From Rikenellaceae bacterium (GTDB taxonomy: Bacteria > Bacteroidota > Bacteroidia > Bacteroidales > Rikenellaceae), in assembly GCA_021201795.1 (NCBI GenBank), contig JAJQEF010000020.1:1-64000 (forward strand): a stretch of 64,000 nt of DNA. The letters are read 5' to 3'. A model generated the notes under the pieces. That model ran no database searches and was not told where the DNA came from. It saw only the letters and a program-made list of their open reading frames with translations. The translations under genes were made by a program, and so were the position numbers. This document shows, piece by piece, positions 4,897 through 8,105 of the stretch (position 1 is its first letter; each line of letters begins with the position of its first letter).

Positions 4897-4918
4897 AAAG
4901 GCGGTATTTACCGCCTTT
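4897..4918 (-). terminator. Terminator after the MscS gene
   Basis: A perfect hairpin with AAAGGCGGTA and TACCGCCTTT arms and a two-base loop lies about 80 bases past the stop codon of the minus-strand channel gene. An A run on the plus strand provides the minus-strand T tract. Confidence 0.75.
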
Positions 4919-4999: not shown

Positions 5000-6121
5000 T
5001 TATTCATGGTTTGATTTATTATTTTGCGGGAATCCATTTTCAGCAAGGGGAGATTCATTGTTTTGAAATTCCAGCACTTTTCTTTTGACAAAATACTGCG
5101 GATAGTTCTGTTGTATGAATTTTATCATCTCTTCCCTAACATAGAATTGAAGATCAGCGCTTTTGCCTGAATCCGGACTGCTTAGTAATATACGAAGTTC
5201 CATGGAATCTTCGCGCATATTGGTTACATTTATATTTGCCACTGTTTTATCCCAAAGAGGATTATTGGATATGATTTCCTGTAGATGTGTCCTTAGAGGT
5301 TCTATAGGCATCAAAAAATCAACATATAAAAATACGGAGCCAAGTAAGTCGGATGAGTTTCTTGTCCAGTTTTCGATAGGATTTTCGAGAAAATAATTAA
5401 TCGGTAATATGAGCCTTCTTTTGTCCCAGATTTTTACAACTACATAAGTTGTATTGATCTCTTCTACTGTACCGTTCTGTCCTTCGATAACAACTACGTA
5501 GTTCAGTTTTATCGGTTGGGTTATTGCGATCTGAATGCCGGCCATTATGGAGGAGAGACTTTTTTGAGCGGCAAGACCTGCCACAGCGGTGAGTATACCG
5601 GCAGATGTCAGGAGACTGATGCCGACGGAACGAATCTGGTCGAAGGTCATAAGACAGATAGCTACTGTGATGACTGCTATTAAACTTATGATTATGCGTT
5701 CGAAAATAGAGAATTTAGTTACACTGCTCTGGGCTTCGAGACCGGTTTTAGCTTCTTCTTTTACTTTACGTTCGAGATAATAAAATAAAATGCGTATCCC
5801 TTTGATAACGATCCAACCTATGGTAATTATAAGCAGGATCTCCATTGCATGGTCGATTAGGTGCTGATACTGGGTGTCGAAAAAACTTGTTTTGGTGTAA
5901 ATTTTCAACATTATCCATAAAAGCAGAAATAATATCGGCATTTTAAGCATATCCACTACGAAGTTATCGACTTGGCTCTCTGTTTTTGCCGCTCTTTTAT
6001 TAAGACGTTTAACCAGGTATCTATATAAAAATATCACTATTATAACAGCTCCAATAAATACCAGTGCGCTTATTATGAATCTTGTCGAACCACTGTTTAC
6101 TATCTCCTCAATATTTTCCAT
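5000..6121 (-). CDS. Mechanosensitive channel, MscS family
   Basis: Predicted inner-membrane channel of the small-conductance mechanosensitive type, which opens on hypo-osmotic stress. The 373-residue protein has four likely membrane helices: about 15-35, 65-85, 95-112 and 145-170. A pore-helix region rich in Gly, Ala and Ser follows (LLTSAGILTAVAGLAAQKSLSSIMAGIQIAI, about 172-202). The MscS beta domain comes next (VVIEGQNGTVEEINTTYVVVKIWDKRRLILP), then the C-terminal alpha/beta domain. The last 20 residues are polar and low in complexity. The next upstream gene on the same strand starts only 12 bases away, so the two may be cotranscribed. Confidence 0.92.
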   Translation of the reverse strand: MENIEEIVNSGSTRFIISALVFIGAVIIVIFLYRYLVKRLNKRAAKTESQVDNFVVDMLKMPILFLLLWIMLKIYTKTSFFDTQYQHLIDHAMEILLIITIGWIVIKGIRILFYYLERKVKEEAKTGLEAQSSVTKFSIFERIIISLIAVITVAICLMTFDQIRSVGISLLTSAGILTAVAGLAAQKSLSSIMAGIQIAITQPIKLNYVVVIEGQNGTVEEINTTYVVVKIWDKRRLILPINYFLENPIENWTRNSSDLLGSVFLYVDFLMPIEPLRTHLQEIISNNPLWDKTVANINVTNMREDSMELRILLSSPDSGKSADLQFYVREEMIKFIQQNYPQYFVKRKVLEFQNNESPLAENGFPQNNKSNHE

Positions 6122-6132
6122 AAGTCCATTAT

Positions 6133-6546
6133 TTAATACATATATCTGTCTTCACCACATCCATGACTCTTGCATATGCAGTCGTCGTCACACTGGCAAT
6201 CATCTCCACAGCTGCAATTCTCGGAACAATTGCATTCCGTATTATCATTCAGATATTTATCGCAAAGATTTATAGTTGTATTTAATGCGTTCTGTAAATC
6301 TTCAGGGATATCTGCATATTCCTTACATTTTATGTATTCTTCTCTTAAGTCCATTATAGTTCTTTTGGTTTGGGATTCTGACCTGTAACCGAAATTCCTT
6401 AAAGCATCAAGAGATGAGTCCTTGCATTTTTCCAAAGAAGATTCTTTTTTGTTGCCGTTAGTTTTAATGTAGGTATTAAAATAGTAGACGCTTTCTGCAA
6501 GCGCGCTGACAATTTGTAGTATTAATTTTTGTTCCATAATAACCAT
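6133..6546 (-). CDS. Small protein with CxC-repeat (metallothionein-like) tail
   Basis: Unrecognised 137-residue protein in two parts. Residues 1-100 look like a soluble helical bundle (LILQIVSALAESVYYFNTYI ... SSLDALRNFGYRSESQTKRTI), resembling small four-helix proteins. Residues 104-130 hold nine cysteines at C105, C107, C111, C113, C117, C119, C123, C125 and C130: four CxC pairs at a six-residue period, with acidic residues between them. This pattern suggests thiolate metal binding, which is inference. There is no signal peptide. A second ATG at 6537 (MEQKL) could be the real start. It lies 12 bases upstream of the MscS gene. Confidence 0.7.
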   Translation of the reverse strand: MVIMEQKLILQIVSALAESVYYFNTYIKTNGNKKESSLEKCKDSSLDALRNFGYRSESQTKRTIMDLREEYIKCKEYADIPEDLQNALNTTINLCDKYLNDNTECNCSENCSCGDDCQCDDDCICKSHGCGEDRYMY

Positions 6547-6547
6547 T

Positions 6548-6578
6548 TTGGTACTCTTTTTTGCAAAAAGAATACCAA
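6548..6578 (-). promoter_or_regulatory. Inverted repeat just upstream of the CxC-tail gene
   Basis: Arms TTGGTA.TCTTTTT and AAAAAGA.TACCAA, with one C/A mismatch and a three-base loop, sit directly in front of the ATG at 6546. It may be a terminator for the upstream gene ending at 6650, or a structure occluding initiation of the downstream gene. The sequence does not decide. Confidence 0.5.
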
Positions 6579-6649: not shown

Positions 6650-7051
6650 TTAAAAAGTTTTTTTTAATGATATAATGTAATTATCATTTCCTGTTACTTC
6701 TCGGATTTTATTCCGCAAAAATTTTAAATAATCCACAGGATTTTCGGAAAATATTCCTTTGTTCCTGAAGTAATCGCTTACTATAGACTCGATTCCCATA
6801 TTGATAATTACCTGCCGTTCAGAAAACTTTTCTGTGATCCTGATATTGATCTGATAATTGTTGAATATATCAGAAGCCTTTGAGATGCAGTTTACTGCGG
6901 GAATTTCGATTTTATTCGTTCCGGTATTAAGCAGAAGATTTCCGTCTTTGGTTATGGATTCTATAATAGAATAGAACTCTTCGTTGTTGCTCATTACTTT
7001 GATCACTTCGCCTGGCAAGAGTGAATCGGAACGCAAGAGGGTTGCTTTCAT
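6650..7051 (-). CDS. Hypothetical protein downstream of a small HTH gene
   Basis: Unrecognised 133-residue soluble protein. The first half looks like a beta-rich domain (SLLPGEVIKVMSNNEEFYSIIESITKDGNLLLNTG) and the second half is helical (IESIVSDYFRNKGIFSENPVDYLKFLRNKIREV). It follows the 69-residue HTH gene by 13 bases on the same strand, so the two are almost certainly one transcript. No signal peptide or membrane helix. Confidence 0.6.
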   Translation of the reverse strand: MKATLLRSDSLLPGEVIKVMSNNEEFYSIIESITKDGNLLLNTGTNKIEIPAVNCISKASDIFNNYQINIRITEKFSERQVIINMGIESIVSDYFRNKGIFSENPVDYLKFLRNKIREVTGNDNYIISLKKTF

Positions 7052-7064
7052 AATTAAGTTATTT

Positions 7065-7274
7065 TTATTCAGGGAAAAGTAATTCCGAGGGTATTCCTAA
7101 TTCTTGGGCAATAATCTTTTTTGCCAGTTCATCCGGTTTTTGCCGGCCGGATAGCCACATTCTGACCGTAGCTTCCGAGCGACAGGTTAATTTCGCAATT
7201 CTTTTTACAAACCTGCCCTTTGGCGATTCGGTAGATAAAGAATCGTAATATTCTTTAAATGTAGTTTTAACCAT
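7065..7274 (-). CDS. Small HTH DNA-binding protein
   Basis: A 69-residue protein that is essentially one helix-turn-helix: PKGRFVKRIAKLTCRSEATVRMWLSGRQKPDELAKKIIAQELG reads as the four to five helices of a Cro/CI-like fold, with RSEATVRMWLSGRQKP as turn and recognition helix. It is divergent from the longer HTH regulator at 7422 across a short promoter region, an arrangement common for paired regulators. Target unknown. Confidence 0.75.
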   Translation of the reverse strand: MVKTTFKEYYDSLSTESPKGRFVKRIAKLTCRSEATVRMWLSGRQKPDELAKKIIAQELGIPSELLFPE

Positions 7275-7299: not shown

Positions 7300-7331
7300 T
7301 TTGTTTTTGTGGCGCACAAATATTATATTTG
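7300..7331 (+). promoter_or_regulatory. Bacteroidota promoter for the HTH gene at 7422
   Basis: TTTG at 7300-7303, a 20-base spacer and TATATTTG at 7324-7331 match the Bacteroidota -33/-7 consensus exactly. Transcription would start near 7338. That lies downstream of a possible TTG start at 7329 and therefore supports the ATG at 7422. Confidence 0.7.
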
Positions 7332-7421
7332 GTCGCAAACAATTTTGTTAATACATTTTTACAAGACAAATTTATACGCATTCGAGTAAATATACAAATT
7401 TTAGTTAGATTATTTACTCAA

Positions 7422-8105
7422 ATGCATAAGAAAAAAATAAGCAAAATGATCCAGGATAGGGTTAAATTTTTAATAAAGAAATATAGTAATGGAGTCAAAA
7501 GCGCATTTGCAAGTCGTGTCGGACTCTCTCCTTCTGTGATCGAGAATATGGTAGGAATACGCGGAGGTAATCCACGTTTCGATGTATTGGTTAAAATTCT
7601 GACGAGTTTTCCAGAATTGGATGCCAATTGGCTTGTGTTGGGTGAACGTAGGAACCTAAATGATGAGGTGGCGATAGGAAACGAACTGCGTGAATATTTT
7701 GCCGAATTATCTATAACCGAACAGCAGGCTGCGGATAGTTTGGGCGTGGATCTAACCGTGGTCAGAGAGCATCTCAATGGAAAACCGTTCGATGAGGAAA
7801 GTGCTGAAATATGGAGTGAAACCTTTGGTATACAGGAGAAATGGCTATTTTCCGGGAAAGGAAATATGTTCAAAAAGATACAGGGGCCGATCAATATAAA
7901 TCTGGAGAGTTTAAAATATGTAGCGGAATCCAGGACAGGTTATCAGGCAGAAGAAATCCGGAAATTAAGGAGCCAGCTTGCAGAACTTGATGAACGCATT
8001 GAAAACCTCTCGGCACAAAACAAAACGCTACATTCCGATAATGCCGCTATTCAGGAAAAGTGCGAAATAATGCTGGAAAAGATAAATAAACTCTTAAGTA
8101 GATAA
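7422..8105 (+). CDS. XRE-type transcriptional regulator with coiled-coil tail
   Basis: A 227-residue regulator starting MHKKKISKMIQDRV. Residues about 5-75 form an HTH of the phage-repressor type (FASRVGLSPSVIENMVGIRGGNPRFDVLVKILTSFPELDANWLVLGE), ending in the WLVLGE motif usual for this Bacteroidales class. A second HTH-like repeat follows (LSITEQQAADSLGVDLTVVREHLNG ... WLFSGKGNMFK). The last 50 residues are a heptad-rich coiled coil (LRSQLAELDERIENLSAQNKTL), presumably for oligomerisation. The frame is open from a TTG at 7329, but the promoter boxes argue for the ATG at 7422. It diverges from the small HTH gene. Confidence 0.8.
   Translation: MHKKKISKMIQDRVKFLIKKYSNGVKSAFASRVGLSPSVIENMVGIRGGNPRFDVLVKILTSFPELDANWLVLGERRNLNDEVAIGNELREYFAELSITEQQAADSLGVDLTVVREHLNGKPFDEESAEIWSETFGIQEKWLFSGKGNMFKKIQGPININLESLKYVAESRTGYQAEEIRKLRSQLAELDERIENLSAQNKTLHSDNAAIQEKCEIMLEKINKLLSR

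Follow-up and report, generated by a model that had tools for sequence, protein, structure and literature searches.

An open reading frame (ORF) in a Rikenellaceae genome joins a predicted helical domain to a tail of regularly spaced cysteines, which raises the question of what such a protein does and from what it is derived. The ORF lies in the window (i.e., the whole 64,000-nucleotide stretch of contig JAJQEF010000020.1 that was analyzed). The genome containing the window is labeled G000, and G006 and G017 are other genomes with which it was compared.

The reading frame and its nine-cysteine tail

The ORF (positions 6133 to 6546, minus strand) encodes 137 aa from an ATG codon, comprising a predicted four-helix bundle and a Cys tail, with no signal peptide evident by eye. 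Translation probably starts at Met4 (ATG at 6537), which would give a protein of 134 aa. This start is the likelier one because a relative of the protein in G006 begins there and a 31-bp palindrome (6548 to 6578) ends just before the first ATG. The relative (G006:C19:4176-4592; JAJBUQ010000024.1, a Rikenellaceae MAG) is syntenic and 28% identical to the window protein. Both proteins end in the same nine residues, GCGEDRYMY (residues 129 to 137 in the window protein; codons at 6136 to 6162, minus strand), and a syntenic relative with this ending supports the reading frame and the end of the ORF. The codons of the nine residues show 4 synonymous and 0 nonsynonymous differences, and the chance of nine identical residues in a run is ~1.5e-6 at the background identity of 27/120. 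The last five codons, including the stop, are identical as DNA, so that a constraint at the DNA level is possible at the end of the ORF.

The tail carries four CxC pairs, with 3 residues between pairs and 4 before a ninth Cys, in the pattern (CxCxxx)3CxCxxxxC (residues 105 to 130; positions 6157 to 6234, minus strand). Its Cys residues are at positions 105, 107, 111, 113, 117, 119, 123, 125, and 130, i.e., nine within 26 residues, and the 35-residue tail has 9 D/E residues versus 2 K/R residues. Residue counting confirmed this arrangement, including the three-residue acidic spacers, as it was given in a preliminary description of the sequence; the corresponding 4xCxC DNA pattern occurs once in the window (6172 to 6234, minus strand) and is absent from all 100 dinucleotide shuffles. 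The four 18-nt units of the array share only 7 to 11 of 18 bases (2 to 5 of 12 outside the Cys codons). Because the units have diverged to this extent, the array is not a fresh product of slippage; low-complexity expansion, which was considered in the preliminary description, is a possible origin. Pfam gave no match to the tail at an E value of ≤10, and a conotoxin-like match (E values of 2.5 and 3.9) was dropped as Cys driven.

CxC arrays were also sought elsewhere. The 3xCxC DNA pattern matched in 90 of 268 family genomes and is therefore not discriminating by itself; by eye, many among the matches listed are low-complexity repeats. In viral contigs, the 4xCxC pattern matched at least 120 stretches, 96 of which contain an in-frame array. 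Forty viral arrays lie within 60 aa of the stop in ORFs of at least 60 aa, and regular acidic spacers were present in none of the 25 that were inspected by eye. The acid-spaced version of the 3xCxC pattern was found in 1 of 395 phylum genomes, the match being the window itself, and in 7 viral contigs. The ORF at L204:987-1127 (plus strand) and similar ORFs in L200 and L201 encode acidic mini-proteins of 42 to 46 aa with five CxC pairs; two of these mini-proteins are identical as listed. The L204 gene is located upstream of ORFs that resemble terminase and portal genes by eye, and its product is possibly a phage-borne metallothionein; this type of mini-protein had no match at an E value of ≤0.01 in 50,697 phage records. 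The viral mini-proteins share an acid-spaced CxC array of similar units with the window tail but stand alone, without a helical domain. Another ORF, L203:867-1643 (minus strand), encodes a lipoprotein-like protein of 258 aa in which an acidic CxC array is followed by a part that is thioredoxin-like by eye. Since the acid-spaced versions are rare and occur in unlike settings (i.e., a genome, mini-proteins, and a lipoprotein-like ORF), the array looks modular and convergent between contexts.

The predicted bundle and copper storage proteins

AlphaFold2, run on a two-row alignment, predicted four helices (residues 3 to 30, 36 to 51, 57 to 75, and 82 to 101) in the domain preceding the tail (residues 3 to 101; positions 6244 to 6540, minus strand), which bears out, as a prediction, the earlier suggestion that the Cys tail is attached to a helical domain. 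The pLDDT values of 10-residue blocks over residues 1 to 100 ranged from 66 to 91 (76 to 91 for 8 of 10 blocks), and the tail was of low confidence. The domain is copper storage protein (Csp)-like in VIA-align: the best match was Csp 6q58 (Z score of 13.3; root mean square deviation [rmsd] of 1.8 over 101 residues), and the top three were the Csps 6q58, 6ei0, and 6q6b (Z scores of 13.1 to 13.3; rmsd of 1.8 over 99 to 101 residues), at a Z score level (~13) that is attainable by unrelated helical bundles. Inhibitors of pectin methylesterase and of invertase, as well as designed bundles, also reached a Z score of ~12, within about 1 to 2 units of the Csps. Foldseek found no match in the PDB at an E value of ≤0.001, the best E values being ~0.1 for structures that include pectin methylesterase inhibitors and Csps, and BFVD likewise gave no match at ≤0.001. 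At E values of ≤10, the sole Pfam match to the window core was NUP210_Ig (E value of 0.047).

Csps have a Cys-lined core in which CXXXC pairs bind Cu(I), according to one report (PMC5171941). Both G000 and G006 encode a bona fide Csp (DUF326; E value of 3.5e-12 in G000), and 14 of 120 family genomes have a Csp at an E value of ≤1e-8. The DUF326 profile matched neither the window protein nor its G006 relative, and CxxxC motifs are absent from the bundles of both sequences; for these two reasons, the window protein was not filed as a Csp. The first 101 residues contain 3 Cys in the window protein and 5 in the G006 relative, and an alignment of 14 Csps has 13 invariant Cys columns. Two of the Csps, L182 and L185 from two other family genomes, are without several fourth-helix Cys present in the majority of the 14 aligned sequences, so that true Csps, too, seem to have lost some of their copper sites in places.

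Pairwise comparisons with Csps gave stronger scores for the G006 relative than for the window protein. BLASTP aligned the G006 relative with the Csp of G000 colinearly over 113 columns (27.7 bits; E value of 1e-5 for a single comparison), and the window protein alone reached 12.3 bits (E value of 2.3). Smith-Waterman scores of the G006 relative against two Csps were reached by 0 of 2,000 residue shuffles for either; when its Cys residues were masked, 8 and 237 of 2,000 shuffles reached the score. For the window protein, the corresponding numbers were 560 of 2,000 for one Csp and 6 of 2,000 for the other (293 and 24 after masking).

Profile comparisons by hhalign gave probabilities of only 38% for the profile pair and 31.6% for the core. 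The score of the core profile against the 14 Csps was 26.4 over 103 columns, compared with a mean of 10.4 and a maximum of 18.9 for column shuffles (n = 200); with Cys masked, it was 24.6, compared with a shuffle maximum of 16.3 (n = 200). The reversed profile scored 9.0. Block shuffles reached the observed score in 0 of 200 (7-residue blocks), 4 of 200 (14-residue blocks), and 3 of 200 (28-residue blocks) cases, and 72 rotated cores had a mean of 22.3 and a maximum of 24.1; preserving longer segments in the controls thus lessens the strength of the result, with the caveat for the large-block and rotation controls that the blocks would themselves carry true homology. The window protein alone scored 17.2 against Csp, and the maximum for 146 decoy pieces was 18.0. 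Among 264 ORF pieces, of which two were self, Csp was the top non-self match to the core (20.3, followed by 17.6). In the Cys-masked alignment, four of the five core Cys of the G006 relative fell on Csp Cys, which make up 15 of the 103 aligned positions (binomial probability of ~0.002); for the window core, these were 1 of 1 in the local alignment and 2 of 3 in the global one.

These similarities, which appear with the G006 relative and the profiles and hardly with the window protein alone, suggest that the bundle may well descend from Csp. The explanation that we favor, at about an even chance, is that the protein is a cytosolic and fast-evolving bundle, probably a diverged Csp without in-bundle copper sites, which in the window species has a tail of nine thiolates for Zn(II) or Cu(I). 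Here, the bundle is predicted, and we infer its descent, together with metal binding, the choice of metal, and the role of the protein. A possible but doubtful reading goes further and regards the protein as a Csp-metallothionein hybrid evolving rapidly in one genus, in which the interior would have been emptied of Cys, the metal sites would have moved to the external tail, and GCGEDRYMY would be a tip for docking or metal transfer.

Distribution, gene neighborhood, and alternative origins

Among the 268 family and 393 order genomes profiled, only two species yielded the gene. A homologue search of family genomes was positive in 2 of 200. The two-row profile matched in 11 of 268 family genomes at an E value of ≤0.1, and just two of these matches, in G000 and G006, are convincing; the other nine (E values of 0.0098 to 0.098) were dropped, and the only one inspected (L004) is, by eye, an unrelated secreted protein. 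Over the order, 3 of 393 genomes matched, and the two besides G000 (E values of 0.003 and 0.004), which covered 55 to 60 positions of the model within reading frames of 374 aa and 185 aa, were set aside. The window protein as a query had no homologue in genome or viral contigs, and the G006 relative had none in viral contigs. As exact DNA, the C-terminal motif occurred in one stretch of the genome contigs (the G006 record) and in none of the viral contigs.

The preliminary description took homologues lacking the Cys tail as evidence against its reading, and the sole homologue found does lack the array: in its place, the G006 relative has an acidic, Cys-poor linker. The ninth Cys is common to both proteins, and the array is found in the window protein alone, which, in a comparison of two species with no outgroup, would fit a gain in one lineage as well as a loss in the other. 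Together with the identical last nine residues and their low chance probability, this linker would fit a rather unlikely alternative, in which the conserved function resides in the bundle and GCGEDRYMY (e.g., partner docking), with the CxC array having expanded within the linker in one lineage, possibly as a near-neutral change. However, the four exact three-residue spacings, the alternating CxC pairs, and the diverged DNA units look maintained, and nine free thiols are seldom neutral.

The gene order repressor-like gene, 69-aa HTH-like gene (HTH69), 133-aa gene, 137-aa ORF, MscS gene, 321-aa gene, uvrC, and rny is common to the window and G006, where the last two are named by eye and G006 has additional genes inserted among the final members. 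The ORF lies upstream of an MscS-type channel gene (5000 to 6121, minus strand; Pfam MS_channel_2nd E value of 1.1e-12), with a gap of 11 nt in the window and 10 nt in G006. On its other side are the genes for a 133-aa protein (6650 to 7051, minus strand), for which β-strands and helices are predicted with only weak structural matches, some of them Tudor-like; for HTH69 (7065 to 7274, minus strand), which has only weak HTH matches; and for a divergent phage-type repressor-like protein (7329 to 8105, plus strand; phrog_8 E value of 1.3e-11, from position 7440 on). An aquaporin gene is also among the neighbors, and no metal gene was recognized among the neighbors examined. The two species have conserved versions of MscS (79% over 341 residues), HTH69 (78%), and the 321-aa protein (64%), whereas the 133-aa protein (33% over 101 aligned residues), the repressor (38% over 220 columns), and the 137-aa ORF (28%) are fast evolving.

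The near-perfect palindrome before the ORF (6548 to 6578, minus strand; 14-nt arms, 93% complementary) is a candidate operator or promoter. Its left 20 nt are present in G006 with 2 mismatches, and no inverted repeat was found there. A palindrome regulon was rejected, since the orthologous site is the only one with ≤2 mismatches in either genome. Three side observations were made as well. At G006:C19:4606-5715, an in-frame TAA within a longer similarity causes the G006 MscS ORF to end earlier than that of the window. A terminator-like stem of 9 pairs lies between the MscS and 321-aa genes (4897 to 4918, both strands). An oleate hydratase family gene (MCRA, PF06100; 9304 to 10924, plus strand) is split over several frames, with profile positions 2 to 69, 160 to 246, and 243 to 495 in separate ORFs, which reflects either a broken gene or assembly errors.

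An MscS orthologue was found in 5 of 150 genomes at an E value of ≤1e-60. Three of the orthologues are outside the genus; by eye, their 1.5-kb flanks contain no relative of the ORF, and the profile had no match in these genomes. An old partnership with MscS was rejected on this basis, and a partnership, if real, would be recent.

The small genes upstream of MscS could also be read as the remnant of a phage immunity region, i.e., a domesticated early-gene set of repressor, small HTH protein, 133-aa protein, and 137-aa protein, with a bundle unrelated to Csp. We consider this reading unlikely. The phrog_8 similarity of the divergent repressor to phage regulators speaks for it, as do an HTH69 relative in G017 (33%) whose gene, by eye, is oriented divergently from another repressor-like gene and precedes a LuxR-like gene, the absence by eye of such small upstream genes from the three MscS orthologues outside the genus, and two results for the G006 relative: a sub-threshold match of residues 20 to 41 to PF06971, a putative DNA-binding N terminus (E value of 0.068; 13.7 bits versus a cutoff of 27), and weak matches to PHROGs listed there without an assigned function (E values of 0.21 and 0.61). 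Against it, both species keep the locus in synteny next to the rny- and uvrC-like genes, no relative was found in phage or plasmid records at an E value of ≤0.1, and the window protein has no PHROG match at an E value of ≤1.

Probable metal binding by the tail and comparison with known systems

A thiol redox switch forming disulfides upon oxidation, in place of a metal site, would suit the dense vicinal Cys, and CxC can be redox active, but such a switch is very improbable, given that no redox partner was recognized beside the gene and that documented Cu(I)/Zn(II) sites have this same regular CxCxxxCxC arrangement. By analogy with such sites, the tail likely binds Zn(II) or Cu(I). In our favored explanation, i.e., a probably Csp-derived bundle with a thiolate tail, the reducing conditions of the cytosol would allow the tail to wrap, in the manner of a metallothionein, around approximately two to three Zn(II) ions or several Cu(I) ions, with its thiolates forming clusters. 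Solubility and the attraction of cations would come from the acidic spacers, stability or assembly from the bundle, and contact with a partner from the GCGEDRYMY tip. The tail may be a local buffer for metal or a metal-sensitive appendage of the bundle. If this explanation is correct, the protein represents one route by which the mode of metal storage can change from rigid in-bundle Cu(I) sites, as in Csp, to a flexible thiolate tail, as in metallothioneins and CopY, and the two species would provide a natural comparison with and without the array. A narrow search of the available portions of open-license literature, covering CxC motifs of bacterial metallothioneins, metallothioneins of Bacteroidetes, and Csps of Bacteroidota, yielded no description of a Csp-like bundle that ends in a CxC tail, which is no proof of absence in print.

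The preliminary description regarded the tail as metallothionein-like but its spacing as different from that of known families. The view of a helical domain, here a predicted bundle, with a thiolate tail of metallothionein type is supported; the claim about the spacing is not, since CopY, plant metallothioneins, and the β domain of human MT2 have such a CxC order. The C-terminal CxCxxxCxC of CopY coordinates either Zn(II) or two Cu(I) ions, as reported in two papers (PMC3817396 and PMC7558416), and the window tail, likewise C-terminal, corresponds to two tandem copies of this motif with one further Cys. In contrast, CopY is an HTH (winged-helix) repressor of copper export genes, described as exclusive to Gram-positive bacteria, whereas the window protein has a predicted four-helix bundle and no winged-helix domain, and no copper gene was recognized among its neighbors. 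Metallothioneins resemble the tail in the order and number of Cys. The human MT2 β domain (chain 2mhu) has (CxC)4 plus a ninth Cys in the order seen in the window tail, and plant metallothioneins also have the three-residue spacers, CXCXXXCXCXXXCXC being tabulated for them in PMC8836122 (and similarly in PMC3677015). Unlike metallothioneins, the window protein carries its tail on a predicted helical bundle of ~100 residues, has acidic spacers, and lacks a sequence-family match.

Csp1 and Csp3 (DUF326) resemble the window protein in the predicted four-helix bundle, which superposes on theirs (Z score of 13.3; rmsd of 1.8), and there is weak colinear sequence similarity when the G006 relative is included, hardly so for the window protein alone, with several residual core Cys at Csp Cys positions. 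In contrast to these Csps, with their in-bundle CxxxC, the window protein has its thiolates in an external tail, which is present in one of the two species. The spacing of this tail is already known from other metal proteins, and it is the scaffold carrying it that is unfamiliar.
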